A stretch of 64,000 nucleotides of DNA from Natrinema halophilum (lineage in GTDB: Archaea > Halobacteriota > Halobacteria > Halobacteriales > Natrialbaceae). Positions 35,596 through 48,498 of this stretch are shown here, one piece after another. The translations under genes were made by a program, and so were the position numbers. The notes beneath the pieces are model-generated. The model had not been told where the DNA came from. It saw only the letters and a program-made list of their open reading frames with translations, and ran no database searches. Where the stretch lies: assembly GCF_013402815.2 (NCBI RefSeq), contig NZ_CP058601.1, positions 1,488,001 to 1,552,000 of the forward strand, read 5' to 3'. Positions within the stretch are counted from its first letter, which is position 1; each line of letters opens with the position of its first letter.

Positions 35596-35694
35596 TCTGC
35601 GCTCGAGTTGGCGTCGCGCCACTTGAGTCACCGCGGAGGCTCGACTGCTCGCGAGGGGACAATTCTCAAGACGACCGGGCCGAAAGGAACGTGT

Positions 35695-37926
35695 ATGAGT
35701 TCGTCGGAGTCGGACGGCGTCACGCTATCGGTGCGCGCCGCCGAAAAAGGAGACGCGGGCCGAGGTGTCGCACGGATACCCGAATCGGTACGGCGTCGAC
35801 TCGGCATTCTGAGTGGCGATGCCGTCGTGATCGAGGGAGATGCGTCGACCGTCGCCAAGATGTGGCCGGCCGACCCATCGACACCCGACGATGCGATTCA
35901 GATCGACGGCGATACACGAGCTAACGCCGCCGTACACGTCGGTGATACGGTCACCGTCCGGCCGAAAGACAAGTCCACCATCGCCGACGCCGAACGGATC
36001 ACGCTGATCGCACCACCGGGTCTCTCCGAAAGTCAGCGCCGAACCGCCGAAAACGGCGCTGCAGAGAAACTTCGCAACCGACCGGTCCGTAGCGGCGAAC
36101 AGGTCCGAATCGAAGGCATCGATCAACAGCCGCTCAGAGTCAGCGATACTGATCCCGGCGGCGACGTCCGAATCACGAGCGCAACCACCGTTCACCTCGT
36201 TACCCCCGGCGATGGGGAAGACGGAGCCAAACGCTCGAGCGCGTCCGGCTCAGTCGACCGAGACCGGGGGGCCAACGGATCGACGGGGACGCAAGCATCC
36301 GCCGATCCCGCTTTCGAAGCTCAGTCGGCCGATTCCGGGCCGAGTTCGGGCGTCACCTACGAAGACATCGGCGGTCTGGACGAGGAACTCGAACTCGTCC
36401 GCGAGATGATCGAACTCCCGCTGTCGGAACCCGAGTTGTTTCGGCGGCTCGGCGTCGAATCGCCGTCCGGCGTGTTGCTGTACGGTCCGCCCGGCACCGG
36501 CAAGACGTTGATAGCACGCGCCGTCGCCAACGAAGTCGACGCCTCGTTCGAGACGATTTCGGGCCCGGAGATCATGTCGAAATACAAGGGCGAATCCGAG
36601 GAACAGCTCCGGCGAACGTTCGAGGACGCCCGCGAGAACGCACCGACAATCATCTTCTTCGACGAAATCGACTCGATCGCCGGTACGCGCGACGACGAAG
36701 GAGATGCAGAAAACCGGATCGTCGGCCAGTTACTCACCCTGATGGACGGCCTCGATGCCCGCGGTGAAGTGATCGTCATCGGCGCGACCAACCGCGTCGA
36801 CGTGATCGATCCCGCGCTCCGCCGCGGCGGTCGCTTCGACCGCGAAATAGGGATCGGGGTCCCCGACGAGGAAGGGCGCAGAGAGATCCTCGAGGTACAC
36901 ACCCGAAACATGCCGTTAGCCGACGACGTCGATATCGACGCCATCGCACGACGGACCCACGGCTTCGTCGGTGCTGATCTGGATGCCGTCGCGAGCGAGG
37001 CTGCGATGGCCGCCATCCGGGATCGACCGACCGAAGCCGACGACCGCCGCGAGTGGAATCGGAATCCGACGGTCGGGAAAGAGCACTTCGACGCCGCGCT
37101 CGCGTCCGTCGAGCCGTCCGCGATGCGCGAATACGTCGCCGAGTCACCGACCATCGACTTCTCGGACGTCGGCGGTCTCGAAGACGCAAAGCAAACCCTT
37201 CGGGAATCCGTGGAGTGGCCGCTGACCTACGATCGACTCTTCGAGGAGACCAACACGGATCCGCCCTCCGGCGTCTTGCTCTACGGACCGCCAGGAACCG
37301 GGAAAACACTGCTTGCTCGGGCGCTCGCGGGCGAGACGGACGTTAATTTCGTCCGCGTCGACGGCCCCGAAATCGTCGATCGCTACGTCGGCGAAAGCGA
37401 GAAGGCGATCCGCGAGGTGTTCGAACGCGCCCGCCAGTCGGCCCCCTCGATCGTCTTCTTCGACGAACTCGACGCCATCGCGGCCGCTCGAGGAGACGGC
37501 CACGAAGTCACCGAGCGTATCGTTTCCCAACTGTTGACCGAACTCGACGGCATGCGGGAAAACCCCAATCTCGTCGTCCTGGGCGCGACCAACCGCAAGG
37601 ACCAGATCGATCCGGCCTTGCTCCGTCCCGGCCGACTCGACACTCACGTCTTCGTCGGCGAACCGGATCGAGCGGCTCGAGAAAAAATCCTCGCGGTCCA
37701 CACCGATGACAAACCACTCGACGACGTCGACGTCGCCGAACTCGCCGCCGAACTCGAGGGGTACACCGGCGCCGACCTCGAGGCGCTGGTCAGAGACGCG
37801 TCGATGCGCGCGATCCGGGAGGTCGCGAGCGAGCACGACCCCGAAACGGCAAACGAGCGGGCATCGGACGTTCGGATCGAGCGGCGTCACATCGAGGCCG
37901 CTCGGACGGCAACGGATCGACAGTAA
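35695..37926 (+). CDS. CDC48-family AAA+ ATPase (paralogue 1, with acidic linker)
   Basis: 743 aa from the ATG at 35695 (MSSSESDGVTLSVRAAEKGD). N-domain: double-psi barrel about 5-90. A Ser/Gly-rich linker (about 175-220) separates it from D1. D1 has Walker A GPPGTGKT, Walker B FFDEIDSIAG and RRGGRFDRE. D2 has [18 protein letters not shown] and RPGRLDTHV. It unfolds or segregates proteins with ATP, working with the proteasome. The last residues (TATDRQ) lack a HbYX-type tail. A second CDC48 gene lies 125 bases away on the opposite strand, convergent. Confidence 0.92.
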   Translation: MSSSESDGVTLSVRAAEKGDAGRGVARIPESVRRRLGILSGDAVVIEGDASTVAKMWPADPSTPDDAIQIDGDTRANAAVHVGDTVTVRPKDKSTIADAERITLIAPPGLSESQRRTAENGAAEKLRNRPVRSGEQVRIEGIDQQPLRVSDTDPGGDVRITSATTVHLVTPGDGEDGAKRSSASGSVDRDRGANGSTGTQASADPAFEAQSADSGPSSGVTYEDIGGLDEELELVREMIELPLSEPELFRRLGVESPSGVLLYGPPGTGKTLIARAVANEVDASFETISGPEIMSKYKGESEEQLRRTFEDARENAPTIIFFDEIDSIAGTRDDEGDAENRIVGQLLTLMDGLDARGEVIVIGATNRVDVIDPALRRGGRFDREIGIGVPDEEGRREILEVHTRNMPLADDVDIDAIARRTHGFVGADLDAVASEAAMAAIRDRPTEADDRREWNRNPTVGKEHFDAALASVEPSAMREYVAESPTIDFSDVGGLEDAKQTLRESVEWPLTYDRLFEETNTDPPSGVLLYGPPGTGKTLLARALAGETDVNFVRVDGPEIVDRYVGESEKAIREVFERARQSAPSIVFFDELDAIAAARGDGHEVTERIVSQLLTELDGMRENPNLVVLGATNRKDQIDPALLRPGRLDTHVFVGEPDRAAREKILAVHTDDKPLDDVDVAELAAELEGYTGADLEALVRDASMRAIREVASEHDPETANERASDVRIERRHIEAARTATDRQ

Positions 37927-38051: not shown

Positions 38052-40280
38052 TTACTGGAATCCGATCCGACTGCCGCGACGGCCCGTCGGGGTGGGGCCG
38101 CTCGTGCCGCCCTGGAACTCTTCTTCGATCTGCTCGTAGTACTCGAGGATGTCGTCGGTGATCGTCGGCCGGACGTTCTCCATGGCCTGTCGGAAGTGGC
38201 GCATTTCGACAACGTCCGCCTCATGGTCCTCGCGCAGGGCCTCGATGGCTGCCTCGCGGGCGATCGACTCGAGGTCGCTGCCGACGTAGCCGTCGGTGAT
38301 CTCGGCGATTTCGCGCAGCGTGACGTCAGCAGCGAGCGGCGTCTCCTCGGTGTGGATCTCGAGGATACGTTCGCGGCCGTCGACGTCGGGTTCGCCGATC
38401 ATAACCAGGCGGTCGAACCGGCCCGAGCGCAGCAATGCTGGGTCGATCATGTCCGGCCGGTTTGTCGCACCGATGACCATCACGTTCTCCATCTCCTCGA
38501 GCCCGTCGAGTTCGGTCAGGAGTTGGTTGACGACGCGCTCGGAGACGTTCGAGCCGGTTTCACCGCCCCGACCGGGCGCGAGCGCGTCGAGTTCGTCGAA
38601 GAAGATAACCGTCGGTGAGACCTGCCGCGCCTTGCGGAAGGTTTGCCGGATGGCCTTCTCCGATTCGCCGACCCACTTGGAGAGCAGTTGCGGGCCGCGA
38701 ACGGAGATGAAGTTGGCGTTGGTCTCGTTGGCGACGGCCTTCGCCATCAGCGTCTTCCCGGTTCCGGGTGGCCCGTAGAGCAAGACGCCTGCCGGCGGAT
38801 CGATCCCGAGTCGTTCGAACCGTTCGGGGGTCGAGAGCGGCCACTCGATGGACTCTTTCACCTGATCTTTCGCCTCGTGGAGACCGCCCACGTCGTCCCA
38901 GGTGATTTTCGGGAGTTCGACGAGAACTTCCCGCATCGCCGAGGGCTCGACTTCGTTCAACGCGCCACGGAAGTCCTCGCGCTTGACGATCATCCGGTCG
39001 ATGAGGCTCGGCGGGATGTCCTCCTCGTCGAGATCGATTTCGGGAAGATACCGCCGGAGCGCCTTCATCGCCGCCTCTTTGGTCAGGCTTTCGATGTCGG
39101 CACCGACGAAGCCGTGGGTCTCGTCGGCCAGGTGGCCGAGGTTGACGTCGTCCGAGAGTGGCATGCCCCGGGTGTGAATCTGAAGGATCTCCTCGCGGCC
39201 GGTCTCGTCGGGGACGCCGATCTCTATCTCGCGGTCGAAGCGGCCGGGGCGACGCAGCGCGGGATCGACGCTGTCGACGCGGTTGGTCGCTGCGATGACG
39301 ATCACCTGACCCCGCGATTCGAGACCGTCCATCATCGTCAGCAGCTGGGCGACGACACGGCGTTCGACCTCGCCGGTGACGTCCTCCCGTTTCGGGGCGA
39401 TGGAGTCGAGTTCGTCGATGAAGATGATAGAGGGTGACTCCTCGGTGGCGTCTTCGAAGATTTCCCTGAGTTGTTGCTCCGATTCGCCGTAGTACTTCGA
39501 GATTATCTCCGGGCCGGCGATAGAGAAGAAACTGGCGGAGGTCTCGTTGGCGACGGCTTTGGCGAGCAGGGTTTTCCCGGTCCCGGGCGGACCGTGCAGG
39601 AGAACGCCCTGTGGGGGCTCGATTCCGAGTTTCTTGAAGATCTGTGGGTGTTTCATCGGGAGCTCGACCATCTCCCGGACCCGCTGGATCTCGTTTTGGA
39701 GGCCGCCGATGTCTTCGTACGTGATGCCGCCGCCGGTCTTCTCGAAGCCCGAGATGGGTTCCTCGCGGAGTTCGACGTCAGTGTCTTCGGTAATAAGAAC
39801 GACCCCCTCCGGTTCGGTTTCGACGGCGATTAGCGGGATCGCCTGTCCCGGAGACCGCATGAACGGATGGTTCGTCGAGGACATCACGGGAACGATGTCG
39901 CGGCCGACGACCGGGCGCTTCAAAATCTGTCGTTTGACCATGCCGGCGGCGTCTGAGCCGAACTGGACCGACGCCTCTTCCGGTGGTGCGAGTACGAGCT
40001 TGTCGGCTTTCGTCGCTTCGGCTTTCCGGATCGTCACCCGTTCGCCGATGCCGACGTCGGCGTTCTGTCGGGTGAACCCGTCGATCCGGACGGTGTCCGT
40101 GTTCCAGTCCTGCCGGTCTGCACGCCAGACCTTCGCGGCAGTCGTGTCTGCGCCCTCTATTTCGATGATGTCGCCCGGACTGAGCTTCAGGTGTAACAGC
40201 GTGTCCGGGTCGAGCCGGGCGATACCACGACCCGAGTCGTTCGGGTACGCCTTGGCAACCTCCAATTGGACTTCGTTCAT
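38052..40280 (-). CDS. CDC48-family AAA+ ATPase (paralogue 2, canonical)
   Basis: 742 aa starting [21 protein letters not shown]-domain, D1 with [21 protein letters not shown] and D2 with [22 protein letters not shown]. This follows the archaeal VAT/CDC48 pattern more closely than the neighbouring paralogue: no long linker, a standard [16 protein letters not shown]1 loop, and a D2 [17 protein letters not shown] loop. It unfolds substrates in the cytoplasm, probably as a hexamer. Confidence 0.94.
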
Positions 40281-40491
40281 GATTTAGGGATGGACGGCGA
40301 TGTCAATGACTCCGATACGTGAGCGGATATGTTTTGTGTTAGCCCACATTCCTATGCTAGTTGCTACCATAGATACTTGGGACTGGATGCTACAAAGATG
40401 TACCGGACTCGGTGGGTTTTGGGCCTATCGATACACCGTTTGATCGCCGGTGACAGGAGGATTTTTGCGGCTTCCCGACCCGACAGTACGC

Positions 40492-41907
40492 ATGCGAGTT
40501 CTGGCTTTCGACGGCCGCATGGGAGCGAGTGGTGACATGATCCTCGCCGCTCTGCTCGATGCCGGTGCTTCCCCCGACGCCCTCGAGTCCGTAACGGACG
40601 CCCTCGAGGTCGAGTATCGAATCGACTCGGCGATGAAAAGCGGCATTGCCGCGACGACGGTCGACGTGTTCTTGACGGGCGACGATGACGGCGATAACGG
40701 TGACCGCTCGTACGACGATTCGGAACACGAGCACGAACACGAACACAGTCACGAGCACGATCACGAGCACGGTCACGACCACAGCCACGACCACGACCAC
40801 GAAGACGAACACAGTCACGAGCACGACCACAGCCACGACCACGACCACAGCCACGACCACGACCACAGCCACGATCACGACCACGACGCTGTCCGCGCCG
40901 AGGGCCACGGCCCGCATCGCAGCTATCTCGAGGTCCGCGAGATCGTGACCGACATGGGCCTCGAGCCGGCGGTCGAACGCGACGCCCTCGCGATCTTCGA
41001 ATTACTCGGTCGGGCGGAGGCGGGCGTCCACGGCGAAGAGCTCGAGGGGATTCACTTCCACGAGGTCGGTGCCGACGACGCGATCGCGGACGTGGTCGGT
41101 GCAGCGGCCCTGTTGCACGATCTCGAGCCCGATCGGGTCGTGACGACGCCGCTTTCGACCGGTGACGGGACGGTGTCGATGAGCCACGGCGAATATCCCG
41201 TCCCGGCGCCGGCTGTCGTCGAGATCGCACAGCAGGCCGACTGGTCACTGCGCGGCGGGCCGGTCGACGCGGAGTTGCTCACCCCGACCGGGGCCGCGAT
41301 TCTGGGCCACGTCGCGGACGGCGTCGACTCGCTGCCCCCGCTCTCGCTTTCGGCCTCGGGCTACGGCGCAGGTGGCTACGACCTCGATCCACATCCGAAC
41401 GTGCTTCGAGTACTGGTCGGAGCCGGTGAGGGCGGCCTCGTGAAAGACGATATCGCCGTTCTCGAAACGAACCTCGACGACGCAACGCCGGAGGTGCTCG
41501 GCGGACTGCAAGAGACGCTCTCCGACGCAGGTGCGCGAGATGTCTCGATCGTGCCCGCGACGATGAAAAAGTCCCGACCCGGTCATCTCGTGAAAGTCAT
41601 CTGCAAGCCGGCGGATCGGGAGCGCATCGCTCGGCGACTGGCCGCGGAGACCGGGACGCTTGGCGTTCGCGATGCAGGGGTGACCCACCGGTGGATCGCG
41701 AATCGGGAGTTCGAGACGGTTCGTCTCGAGATCGGCGGCGACGAGTACGAGGTCGTCGTGAAAATTGCGAGCGACGACGATGGCGAGGTCCACGACGTGA
41801 GTGCAGAGTACGACGACGCCGAAGCGGTGGCTCAGGAGAGCGGTGTGCCGGTTCGCGAGGTGATCAGGCGGTCGGAGACGATCGCTCGCGAGTCGGTCTC
41901 TCGCTAG
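40492..41907 (+). CDS. larC: Nickel-pincer cofactor biosynthesis protein LarC, with long His-rich insert
   Basis: 471 aa from the ATG at 40492 (MRVLAFDGRMGASGDMILAA). The start and the ETNLDDATPEVLGGL, GIHFHEVGADDAIADVV and VPATMKKSRPGHLVKVICK segments match LarC (DUF111), which inserts nickel into the pyridinium dithiocarboxylate pincer cofactor of lactate racemase. Residues about 78-135 are an almost pure His/Asp/Glu/Ser tract (HSHEHDHEHGHDHSHDHDH and similar). It could store or capture nickel. Family members commonly have a shorter His stretch here. No larA, larB or larE gene is in the window. Confidence 0.9.
   Translation: MRVLAFDGRMGASGDMILAALLDAGASPDALESVTDALEVEYRIDSAMKSGIAATTVDVFLTGDDDGDNGDRSYDDSEHEHEHEHSHEHDHEHGHDHSHDHDHEDEHSHEHDHSHDHDHSHDHDHSHDHDHDAVRAEGHGPHRSYLEVREIVTDMGLEPAVERDALAIFELLGRAEAGVHGEELEGIHFHEVGADDAIADVVGAAALLHDLEPDRVVTTPLSTGDGTVSMSHGEYPVPAPAVVEIAQQADWSLRGGPVDAELLTPTGAAILGHVADGVDSLPPLSLSASGYGAGGYDLDPHPNVLRVLVGAGEGGLVKDDIAVLETNLDDATPEVLGGLQETLSDAGARDVSIVPATMKKSRPGHLVKVICKPADRERIARRLAAETGTLGVRDAGVTHRWIANREFETVRLEIGGDEYEVVVKIASDDDGEVHDVSAEYDDAEAVAQESGVPVREVIRRSETIARESVSR
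40724..40893 (+). repeat. His-codon-rich tandem repeat inside larC
   Basis: Imperfect repeats of CACGACCACAGC/CACGAGCAC encode the His/Asp/Glu tract. The regular short units make the length prone to change by slippage without breaking the frame. Confidence 0.8.
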
Positions 41908-42093: not shown

Positions 42094-42627
42094 TTATCCG
42101 ACGACGATACCGCGGAGGGAGACAGCCGTTGCATCGGCGTTCTGCCGTTGGCTGTTGGATTGGTCCGCGGTCTGCGTTATGTTCGCGTTGTTGGTCACGG
42201 TTGCACTGGCGTTGTCGGCCGAACCGCCACTCGCATCGACGACGACCGATTCGTTGGCCGCCGCCGCGTCATCGAGGAATGGCGGCGGACCATTATTCAT
42301 GGCGCTGACATCGTTAGACTGGGCGGTGTTCGGCGGGCCCGGTGGGAAGTCGTCCCCAGTCGTAGTCGCATTCTCGGAGACGACGACGTTACCGCCGTCG
42401 CCCGCTTCAACGCTCGCGTTCCCGTCCTGGATGATCGGTCCAGCCTCCTGGTTATTGAGGTTCACCTGTACTCCGTCCTGCTCTTGGTCCACGATTGCGT
42501 CCGCGCTCTGGAAGTCGAGATCGTCAAGGCTAGTCCTTTCGGTTGCCGCTGCCGTTCCGGCGAACCCCATCAGAAAGAGGCTGCCGATCATCGCTACCGT
42601 CAGTGTGATTGTGAGTTGACGTTTCAT
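42094..42627 (-). CDS. Secreted Gln/Asn-motif protein, partner of the repeat protein at 43236
   Basis: 177 aa with a Sec signal peptide (MKRQLTITLTVAMIGSLFLM, cleaved about residue 28 after TAAA). Residues 48-60 (QEQDGVQVNLNNQ) fit the motif QxQxxxQxNxNxQ exactly; residues 152-162 (QTADQSNSQRQ) fit the related second-half motif in part. The same motif is repeated five times in the protein at 43236. The middle is Gly/Pro/Asn-rich and disordered-looking. It may be a minor or nucleating subunit of an extracellular fibre, by analogy with CsgB of curli; this is inference. Confidence 0.7.
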   Translation of the reverse strand: MKRQLTITLTVAMIGSLFLMGFAGTAAATERTSLDDLDFQSADAIVDQEQDGVQVNLNNQEAGPIIQDGNASVEAGDGGNVVVSENATTTGDDFPPGPPNTAQSNDVSAMNNGPPPFLDDAAAANESVVVDASGGSADNASATVTNNANITQTADQSNSQRQNADATAVSLRGIVVG

Positions 42628-43235
42628 GGTTGATCGTCAGGCACACGTCATTGGGGACTGGGAACGAAACGGCCTCAATCGCAGAGCCGTGGCTCCTCGT
42701 CTACGGGCTCTGGTGGCCCCCAATTTTGCGCTTCTGACGTGTTGCCCAGTCGCTACACAGTACCGGGACCCATTTGAACCCGGCAAACGGTTTCAGGACG
42801 AATTAGCGGATTAGATATCGTTTTGGGTCGCTCTATACCCTGTGAGGGATTTTTTATCGTCTGTGAGGGAAAATTATCCTCGTTACGACCACACTATTAC
42901 ATCAGTTTCGTATCGTTTCAATACGGATAACTCCGCCTGCCGTACGCGAAATGTTGTATATCTAATGGCAATGATCGGTGATACTCTTCGGTAATTCCTA
43001 GGTAGAATGGCTGTAACGATTCCAAGACGAACGATAATTTATAGAAAACATACGCTGTAGAATAGAATTAGCCGTTCAGGCTGCTGTGAGCGGACGGAGA
43101 CTCTCCGAGACAAGGGTTTCCGTGACCTACTCGTTACAGCCGGTCGTTTCCGGGCATAATGCACTAATTTCTACGCTCTAGCCACGTTCATACCTTCTGC
43201 AGTAAATCGATAACAAAGTAAGTCATCCGGATAGG
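42628..43235. promoter_or_regulatory. AT-rich divergent control region of the Gln/Asn-motif gene pair
   Basis: About 600 bases between the two divergent secreted-protein genes, with several AT-rich stretches (TTGTATATCTAATGG near 42953, ATAATTTATAGAAAAC near 43031) and no credible gene. GATAACAAAG at about 43209-43218 is about 20-28 bases before the first possible start of the plus-strand gene. The length is unusual for two small operons and may hold regulatory sites. Confidence 0.45.
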
Positions 43236-44855
43236 ATGGTTCGCGGCGTACAGATTCGGAAACGAAAGACAATCACGACAGCAATCACGCGATCTATGAC
43301 AAACAACACGACGAGACGGTCACGATCTACGACGATCCTTATGGCCTGTATGGTCGCCTTGGCGATGATGGGTGCCGGTGTCCCGGCAGCCACCGCGGGC
43401 GGCGACGGCGATCTCGAGAACGGGACAGTACACGCACTCGAGAACGGTGAAGAACTGTATCTGGTCTTCGGCGCGGACCTCGGCGAGCAGTCGCTCGAGG
43501 AGTACGTCAACCAGCACGCGGGTGACTCGGCCGACACAGCGGCCGAAGTCGTCCAGTACCAGAACGTCGATCAGGTCAACATCAACGAGCAGGGCTCCGC
43601 GGTGTCGATCTCGATCGACGGCGGTGACGCAACCGCGATCCAGGAGTCGAACCAGCACAACGACAACGTACAGAGCGGAGAGGTCACGGCTGAGAACGTC
43701 GACGTTCGAAGCGCCCAGACCCAGTTCGAGAACGTTGGTGACGTCAACATCATCATCGGTGATGGCGGGGACCAGCAGTTCGACGGCTGGGCAGTCAAAG
43801 ACAAGAAAGACAAAGACGAGACGGTCACGCAGGAAGCCATCGCCGCTGTCGGCCAGTCTCAAGAAGTTGCGCAGGCTAACTTCAACAACCAGAGTACCGC
43901 GTTCGCACTCGCCGTCGACGACAGCGAGGCGACTGCGCTCCAGCAGTCCTACCAGCGCAACGAAAACCTCCAGAAGGGCGTCGCCAACGCGTCCAACGTC
44001 TACCTCGGAGACGGGAAATTCGGACACAAAAAGGACAAGTCTGGTGATAGCGGTCCGTCCACCGGCCAGAGCGCGGAGGCTCTCGTCACGCAACAACAGG
44101 ATGCCGAGCAGGCGAACGTCAACGAACAAGACGGTGCAGTCGCCATCGCGGTCGGCGAGAACAGCACCGCCACGGCGATTCAGTTCACTGACCAGAGTAA
44201 CCTCAACGAACAACTCGGCAGCGCCAGCGCCTCGAACCTGTTGGCGTCTAGCCCAGGTATGAACGTCGCGACGGCAGGCGACGTCAGCGACGAGGTTCTC
44301 GAGAGCCAGGTCGAGCCGGCCAAGCCGGACAAGAAAAACAAGGACGACGATGTCGAGCAGACTGCGACGGCCGGCGTCGCCCAGGAGCAAGGCGTCGAAC
44401 AGATGAACGTCAACCTGCAAAACAGCGCCATGGCGATCGCACAGAACGGGAGCGAGGCAACTTCCGTTCAGATGGCCTACCAGACGAACTACAACGCACA
44501 GGTGGCCTACGCCAACGCGCTCAACGTCTACGCGAGTCCGGGCTACGTCACCGACGACGTCACCCGAACCTCGAGTACGACGGTGACGGTCGACGGAAAC
44601 GCGGGTATGTCCAACCCCGGTATGTCGTACGACTACGGCGCAAACGCGACGCAAACGAACGATGCCGATCAAGCGGCAAGCGCCGCGATCGAACAGCACC
44701 AGTTCATTACCCAGCAGAACGTGAACGAACAGCACACCTCCGTTGCGGTCGCCGAAGACGGTGGCAGTGCAAGCAGTTCGCAGGTCACCCTGCAGGAGAA
44801 CGAGAACGTTCAGTTAACGTCCGTTTCTTCGACGAACGCCTGGGTAGGCGCCTAA
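43236..44855 (+). CDS. Secreted five-repeat Gln/Asn protein, curlin-like (candidate functional amyloid)
   Basis: 539 aa from 43236; an ATG at 43296 gives a more normal signal peptide (MTNNTTRRSRSTTILMACMV, cleaved near AATAGG). The mature part holds five copies of one unit. Each contains QxQxxxQxNxNxQ (residues 107-119, 207-219, 286-298, 383-395, 487-499) and, 29 residues after the unit's first Gln (30 in unit 3), QxxxQxNxNxQ (136-146, 236-246, 316-326, 412-422, 516-526), with alternating small residues (AVAIAV, AFALAV) between. The spacing is nearly invariant. Such Gln/Asn ladders are a hallmark of curli-type beta-solenoid amyloids. Lys-rich spacers separate the units. No transmembrane anchor or sorting signal is present. 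Confidence 0.8.
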   Translation: MVRGVQIRKRKTITTAITRSMTNNTTRRSRSTTILMACMVALAMMGAGVPAATAGGDGDLENGTVHALENGEELYLVFGADLGEQSLEEYVNQHAGDSADTAAEVVQYQNVDQVNINEQGSAVSISIDGGDATAIQESNQHNDNVQSGEVTAENVDVRSAQTQFENVGDVNIIIGDGGDQQFDGWAVKDKKDKDETVTQEAIAAVGQSQEVAQANFNNQSTAFALAVDDSEATALQQSYQRNENLQKGVANASNVYLGDGKFGHKKDKSGDSGPSTGQSAEALVTQQQDAEQANVNEQDGAVAIAVGENSTATAIQFTDQSNLNEQLGSASASNLLASSPGMNVATAGDVSDEVLESQVEPAKPDKKNKDDDVEQTATAGVAQEQGVEQMNVNLQNSAMAIAQNGSEATSVQMAYQTNYNAQVAYANALNVYASPGYVTDDVTRTSSTTVTVDGNAGMSNPGMSYDYGANATQTNDADQAASAAIEQHQFITQQNVNEQHTSVAVAEDGGSASSSQVTLQENENVQLTSVSSTNAWVGA

Positions 44856-47080: not shown

Positions 47081-47434
47081 ATGGCTACGGAGAGGGGTAT
47101 CCCAGTCTTGTGCGTCAATGACGATACTGAGCTACTGAGGTTACTCACCACTCGATTGGAACGCGAAAGTGAGCGCCTCGACGTTTGCACTGCCGGGTCG
47201 ACGGAGGAGGGACTGAAGGTACTCCAGACAACGCGAATCGATTGCATTTTGAGCGACTACCATATGCCGGGTCAGACCGGCGTCGAGTTTCTCCAGTCGG
47301 TTCGAGCTATCGATGACGCGATTCCGTTTATTCTCTTTACCGAAACGGGGAGCGAACAAGCAGCGAGTGACAGTATCGAAGCCGGTGTCACGGATTACAT
47401 CGTCAAAAAGCTATCGGGAACCAATCGCCGCTGA
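47081..47434 (+). pseudogene. Response-regulator receiver domain, 5' part of a frameshifted sensor kinase
   Basis: 117 aa: MATERGIPVLCVNDDTELLR, phospho-acceptor Asp in CILSDYHMPGQTGVEF, Thr in FILFTETG and Lys in YIVKKL. The frame ends at GTNRR-stop. One base later a different frame continues SPLIAQKIIAHVDSYRSQKR, which is the normal linker of haloarchaeal REC-PAS-kinase proteins. A single-base deletion near 47424 therefore separates this domain from the kinase at 47494. A sequencing error would look the same. Confidence 0.8.
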
Positions 47435-47493
47435 TCGCTCAAAAAATAATCGCTCACGTCGACAGCTATCGGTCACAGAAACGGACGGAACAG

Positions 47494-48498
47494 TTGAACC
47501 AGCAACTTCGTGAGTTAGCCGATACGACAGACGACGTCTTCTGGGTTTTTTCATCGGACTGGGAAGAACTCCGCTTCGTCAACGCGGCGTACGAGGCCAT
47601 CTTCGGACAACCAGTAGCGGAGTTCGAAGCGAATCCGCTCTCCTTTTTGGACCAGGTTCATCGGGATGACGTTGATCGAGTAATACGGGCAACCGAGCGC
47701 GCATCAGCGGGAGAAAGCCTCCAGATCGAGTATCGCGTGAACAAGTCGGAGGCGTTTACCCTCTGGGTAGAATCACGCTGCAAACCGGTCACGGACGCTG
47801 ACGGGAACGTCGAGTCGATCGCCGGGTTCACCCGGGAAATTACGGAACGGAAAATCCGCGAACAGAGTCTCGTCGAGAAAAACGAGCAGTTAGAACAGTT
47901 CGCGTCGACGGTCGCACACGACTTGCGCAACCCGCTGAACGTAGCCGACGGAAACATCGAACTCGCGATGGAAGATTCTGAGAGTGAGTACCTGGATATC
48001 GTCTCGGAAGCCATTGCTGCTATGGACGTACTCATCGAGGATCTCCTTGCGCTCGCGAAAGAAGGGGCAACGATCGATCACCGCTCGCAGGTATCGTTCG
48101 AGGAAGTCGTCGAGACGAGCAGCGAGAACATCGTGATGACGGATTCGACGCTCGAAATACGCGGACGAGGGCTCTTGAATTGCGATCCATCACGGGTGAG
48201 AGAAGCACTCGAAAACCTGTTCCGGAACGCGATCGAACACAGTGATACGTCCGTCACCATCACAGCCGGTATACTCGATACGAGAGACGGGTTTTACGTC
48301 GAAGACGACGGGCCCGGAATCGACCCATGCGATCGGAACCATGTTTTCGAGAGGGGGTATACGAACGTAACGCAGGGAAGCGGCCTCGGCCTTGCGATTG
48401 TAAAGAACATCATCGATGCGCACGGCTGGGATATCGACGTCTGTACAAGCCCCACTGGCGGGGCACGATTCGAAATTACTGACGTTGAATTCGTCTAG
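47494..48498 (+). pseudogene. PAS-histidine kinase, 3' part of the frameshifted gene
   Basis: The kinase frame is open from about 47425 and gives 334 aa from the first ATG at 47494. PAS domain about 5-115 (DTTDDVFWVFSSDWEELRFV). HisKA: phospho-acceptor His in FASTVAHDLRNPLN. HATPase: NLFRNAIEHSD, EDDGPGI and GSGLGLAIVKNI. It would autophosphorylate and pass phosphate to a regulator; here the receiver domain is in the upstream frame. Both halves are intact apart from the one-base shift. It may still be made as a free kinase from the internal ATG. Confidence 0.85.

Follow-up and report, generated by a model that had tools for sequence, protein, structure and literature searches.

The two genes at positions 42094–42627 (minus strand) and 43296–44855 (plus strand) of the analysed window, i.e., of a stretch of 64,000 nucleotides from Natrinema halophilum (contig NZ_CP058601.1), belong to a real family of haloarchaea, hitherto undescribed, whose two-component design is clear: a large exported protein with five repeat units and a small secreted partner with a single unit. 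A first-pass annotation had proposed such a system, with one regular Gln/Asn repeat common to both exported proteins, and this proposal was borne out, as were both open reading frames and their export signals. Neither protein was matched in Pfam, NCBIfam or PHROGs, and no match for the large protein was obtained with PDB sequences; short PDB matches to PhoQ and ribosomal S12 (E 0.1–1) were taken as chance. Profile searches with the window proteins and their relatives recognised no adhesin or S-layer domain, and the annotation of plasmid-borne relatives does not go beyond "hypothetical protein" or "PGF-CTERM sorting domain-containing protein".

The large gene, identified from its open reading frame, conservation and motif shuffles, encodes a protein of 519 amino acids, whose residues are numbered here from the ATG at 43296. 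The signal peptide (43296–43397, plus strand) was assigned from the sequence, its n- and h-regions being conserved in the alignment of relatives, and the mature part begins at about Gly35. Five units, delimited by motif search with shuffles and by a unit profile, are encoded on the plus strand at 43536–43700, 43836–44000, 44073–44240, 44364–44528 and 44676–44840. Each consists of two Gln/Asn half-repeats, with one additional residue between the halves of unit 3. The 13-mer QxQxxxQxNxNxQ starts at residues 87, 187, 266, 363 and 467, and QxxxQxNxNxQ follows 29, 29, 30, 29 and 29 residues after these starts, which is the arrangement and spacing annotated before. All ten motifs are exact at each Gln/Asn position; in 20,000 composition-preserving shuffles of the mature protein, by comparison, the eleven-mer occurred with a mean of 0.0044 and never more than once. 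Alanine, glutamine, valine, asparagine and serine are abundant in the mature protein, cysteine is absent and the net acidic excess is 57. Such a composition is typical for an exported haloarchaeal protein.

Translation of the large gene probably starts, as judged from the alignments, at ATG 43296 rather than at the in-frame ATG 43236, which had been chosen earlier, since conservation sets in at 43296 and the extension of several close relatives is closed by an in-frame TAG. The 20 codons of this extension (43236–43295) may represent a fused upstream mini-ORF or a conserved 5' leader. The divergent intergenic, presumably regulatory region (42628–43295) comprises 668 bp with 49% GC; most relatives possess a similar one of about 550–730 bp. 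It contains a conserved element, GATAACAAAG (43209–43218, plus strand), about 87 nt before ATG 43296, which recurred, with little change in position, in 27 of 33 intergenic regions of relatives, compared to at most three occurrences for any 10-mer in shuffled sequences. The element probably belongs to the core promoter of the large gene and is not a regulon site. A role as regulon-wide site was rejected, because the extended pattern GATAACAAAGTNNGT has a single exact site in the whole genome and a reversed control was equally frequent at one mismatch. No structured RNA in this region was matched by Rfam; scans for bacterial promoters and terminators carry no information for archaea.

The partner gene (42094–42627, minus strand), recognised by its open reading frame, homologues and a half-repeat profile, encodes 177 amino acids including a signal peptide (residues 1–28). 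Its first half-repeat (residues 42–62; 42442–42504, minus strand) was located by motif search with shuffles and includes QEQDGVQVNLNNQ; the 13-mer occurs here exactly and once, at residues 48–60, with an expectation of 5e-5. The second half-repeat (residues 152–169; 42121–42174, minus strand) is degenerate, with QTADQSNSQRQ at about residue 152. One exact 13-mer and a partial second half, as described in the first pass, were thus confirmed. The scores of both halves with the half-repeat HMM are weak in the window partner (3.7 and 5.0 bits, respectively). Across the family, 37 of 56 partner proteins exceeded 8 bits, compared to 4 of 1120 shuffles, and two half-repeats above 3 bits were present in 30 of 56 and in 1 of 1120, respectively. 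By these profiles, the partner is a single-unit relative of the large protein, and more than a neighbour with a chance motif. Partner genes are situated upstream of the large gene in divergent orientation, in arrays of one to four; the description as a two-gene locus therefore holds for the window, but not for those relatives with tandem partners. Among partners, the mean identity is 68% for the signal peptides, but only 28% for the mature parts. Four tandem paralogues were found in Natrinema gelatinilyticum (L103:4791-9326), of which the longest carries an additional C-terminal domain without repeats. In Natronorubrum bangense a near-identical five-unit gene with two partner genes is present on both chromosome and plasmid (L113, L114).

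The large protein was present in 99 of 125 genomes of Natrialbaceae and in 87 of 392 sampled genomes of Halobacteriales; beyond Natrialbaceae it was found in Haladaptatus, Halalkalicoccus, Halegenticoccus, Halomicrococcus and Halocatena. A scan of 84,980 species yielded 67 loci, all of them haloarchaeal, and the closest named relative is N. gelatinilyticum (85% identical). A viral or phage origin was rejected, as two scans of viral contigs contained no relatives and PHROGs gave no match. The 67 partner-positive genomes are all among the 99 Natrialbaceae with the large protein (hypergeometric P = 4e-11, a value which overstates independence, since the genomes are related). Five genomes of a genus outside Natrialbaceae, Haladaptatus, whose large proteins are of the Tat type, encode exported single-unit proteins with both half-repeats in canonical order at unlinked positions, and one genome of Natrialbaceae likewise encodes such an exported protein at a distance from its large gene. 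Five-unit and single-unit proteins are thus paired beyond the syntenic locus as well.

The conserved gene order across Natrialbaceae is Cdc48 – LarC – partner(s) – large protein – DUF460-like – RadB. Because the flanking genes are housekeeping genes, this neighbourhood demonstrates synteny, but does not indicate a function. In the window, two genes for Cdc48-type AAA+ ATPases (35608–37926, plus strand; 38052–40280, minus strand) are arranged tail to tail. The LarC-like nickel-insertion protein (40450–41907, plus strand) contains a long His/Asp/Glu repeat insert at about residues 85–150, HEHEHSHEHDHEHGHDHSHDHD..., which is probably a metal-storage stretch. A response regulator followed by a PAS histidine kinase (47081–48498, plus strand) is located near the locus in the window and is not kept beside it in relatives.

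The consensus of the 55-residue unit is AxAxVxQxQxVxQxNxNxQxxAVAIA..DGSxAxAxQxSYQxNxNxQxxxAxAxN. Ten units, five from the window and five from Haladaptatus, could be aligned nearly without gaps over 55 residues, with twelve invariant Gln/Asn positions and a strict alternation of the conserved polar residues. Exactly five matches to the unit profile were obtained in 64 of the 87 positive Halobacteriales genomes; higher counts were found mainly in genomes with paralogues or small relatives, which explain the departures from five at least in part. When half-repeats were compared between species, 561 of 580 were closest to the half-repeat at their own position and not to those at other positions. 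This positional matching, together with the fixed count, indicates that the five units are of old origin, differ from each other and have not undergone turnover by slippage. The linkers between them are unit-specific and contain the conserved motifs FDGW, GMNVATA and YDY, which would be superfluous for a pure stacking protein and count against a polymer. Members of the Haladaptatus type possess His/Lys-rich tracts, in a linker (L161:9878-11449) or as a C-terminal tail (L163:9959-11611), which are not present in the window protein.

With respect to export and anchoring, the relatives differ. A PGF-CTERM archaeosortase signal is present at the C-terminus of 8 of 65 relatives of the large protein. 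The window protein has neither the C-terminal PGF motif nor the transmembrane segment and Arg tail, although its genome encodes an archaeosortase; its partner is also without a sorting anchor. The earlier remark that no anchor is visible was therefore correct for both window proteins, but does not extend to these eight relatives. Signals of the Tat type were found in 18 of 65 relatives, and in the phylogenetic tree one clade of 19 sequences, nearly all of the Tat type, was obtained with a support of 0.99, the other branch being of the Sec type. PGF-CTERM tails occur in several Sec-type members that branch early, and the Natrinema/Natrialba lineage, to which the window belongs, lacks them, a distribution from which the direction of loss can only be inferred, since the tree was midpoint-rooted. 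Linkage to a partner was found for 33 of 39 unanchored Sec-type and 6 of 8 PGF-type large proteins, but for only 1 of 18 of the Tat type. Export by the Tat pathway, which is widely used by haloarchaea, implies folding prior to export; in this respect the Tat-exported clade differs from CsgA, which counts likewise against a polymer.

Structure prediction with AlphaFold2 for the window protein, using 58 homologues, resulted in five beta cores of high pLDDT and disordered linkers (mean 64.5, pTM 0.62); the best ten-residue blocks reached pLDDT 93–97, the linkers remained below 50. In this model each unit forms two long, unbroken hairpin strands about a DGG-type turn, and by arithmetic on the sequence the QxNxNxQ motifs of both halves are in symmetric register around this turn. 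A second model, of a homologue from Halalkalicoccus, contained shorter and broken strands (mean 62.3, pTM 0.58). Five beta units with floppy linkers were thus predicted, but as the two models, both of low to medium confidence, disagree on topology, neither the beta-solenoid suggested in the first pass nor a hairpin is claimed. Foldseek placed CsgA at the top of the list for the first model (8c50_A, E 0.55) and FapC second (9nqd, E 0.95); FapC headed the list for the second model (9nqd, E 0.44). With E values of 0.4–1 and TM scores of about 0.05–0.14 these matches are not significant, so the suggested likeness to functional amyloids is reflected in the order of the lists, but not in their statistics. 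VIA gave a weak lead for the first model, whose only match was to CsgA (8c50_A), with Z 2.7 over 97 residues across all five units, and no match for the second; FapC and HELLF were not matched at Z ≥ 2 with either model, which does not exclude them.

Regular Gln/Asn ladders, export and paired genes are shared with curli CsgA/CsgB. Membership of the curlin family, for which a Pfam search had been recommended, was rejected: the curlin repeat profile PF07012 did not match the window proteins or 58 relatives, no protein of 41 genomes scored above its cut-off (E. coli control positive), and the CsgG pore (PF03783) was not found in the window genome with positive controls. The motif differs from the CsgA consensus, as had been noted, in that half-repeats of about 27–29 residues carry QxxxQxNxNxQ in its place; further differences are the Tat-exported clade and the fixed unit number of the large protein, since many curlins vary in repeat number. 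FapC possesses three near-universal repeats, long flexible linkers and conserved Gln/Asn (PMC12822426). Like FapC, the large protein has imperfect repeats in a fixed number, which contain conserved Gln/Asn and are separated by long linkers, although it has five double repeats compared to three repeats. In design FapC rather than CsgA is the closer analogue. The stacked Greek-key layers of FapC, one per repeat, were compared with both models by Foldseek (9nqd, E 0.44–0.95), and the two models differ in topology. FapC chains of the PDB were not found by family or unit profiles at E up to 5–10; as archaea have no outer membrane, an export of the Fap type does not apply.

Among archaea, the sheath protein SH (MspA) of Methanospirillum is an extracellular, amyloid-like beta-arch protein, whose antiparallel arches form rings around the methanogen cell (PMC10593813). 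The family described here may be a further archaeal extracellular beta-arch protein; a sequence relationship to the sheath protein did not emerge from the searches with this family. The eight relatives with PGF-CTERM, but not the window protein, resemble archaeosortase substrates of haloarchaea. Biofilms of Haloferax are stained by Congo red and thioflavin T, and HVO_1403, the only gene proposed for this staining, is a homologue of a Sulfolobus acylphosphatase (PMC4180959), which led to its rejection as a relative of the family. A genetically defined functional amyloid of haloarchaea was not found in the literature searched.

The explanation which we tentatively prefer, while giving it somewhat less than even credence, is a two-component extracellular or surface system, in which proteins would stack via 55-residue beta units, the five-unit protein perhaps acting as base and the single-unit proteins as its subunits. 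Each unit would fold outside the cell as a beta-arch or hairpin layer; Gln/Asn side chains of one layer would form ladders with the next, as deduced from CsgA and FapC; and five-unit and single-unit proteins could stack via their common interface to a fibre or matrix, in the manner of FapC/CsgA layers. More speculatively, the five-unit protein, being fixed and sometimes anchored or Tat-exported, might serve as a folded base or template, to which the Sec-exported, multi-copy and fast-evolving single-unit proteins might be added. These roles are proposed because of the anchoring, the Tat export with folding beforehand and the multiplication of partners. In the window species, where the large protein lacks an anchor, a role as surface base would need another attachment. 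The reverse assignment made in the first pass, in which a curli-like amyloid would polymerise mainly from the five-unit protein and be nucleated by the small protein as a minor component, appears improbable. It could draw on the unit number, which equals that of enterobacterial CsgA repeats, on the ladders, the divergent gene pair and the leading, if not significant, Foldseek position of CsgA with the window model; yet neither curlin repeat nor CsgG was found, the multi-copy, fast-diverging component is the partner, and some species anchor the large protein and others export it via Tat. PGF-CTERM, Tat export, a fixed large protein and multiplying partners fit the base and subunit roles at least as well.

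The main rival to the polymer is a non-polymerising surface beta-repeat protein, e.g., an S-layer-associated adhesin or spacer, whose ladders would merely keep the molecule's own fold stable at high salt and whose small relatives, soluble or at the surface, would cap or bind it. We consider it a quite possible explanation: the PGF-CTERM anchors of relatives, the Tat-type clade with its implied folding before export, the five fixed units with conserved linkers and the acidic composition all agree with it. It leaves unexplained, however, why the large protein should be accompanied by one to four relatives of a single unit, in which the Gln/Asn positions are the same, and an adhesin or S-layer domain was not recognised. 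A repeat for binding of salt crystals, ice, polysaccharide or metal, with the spaced Gln/Asn as a flat face, would suit the strictly alternating polar residues; it is very unlikely, as the ice-binding protein low in the Foldseek list of the first model is far from significant and no gene of the neighbourhood points to a ligand. Returning to the preferred two-component stacking system, it may work by design like curli or Fap, while being by sequence a member of neither. Its most specific form, an archaeal functional amyloid unrelated in sequence to both, in which an ancestrally archaeosortase-anchored five-layer template would receive Sec-exported, single-layer subunits sharing its ladders, is rather doubtful.

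The family offers a concrete candidate gene pair for a haloarchaeal functional amyloid, in culturable species. Proteins with five layers and with one layer provide a natural experiment on the way in which the number of layers might separate a template from its subunits, and the stacking of Gln/Asn ladders could here be an independent invention outside the bacteria.
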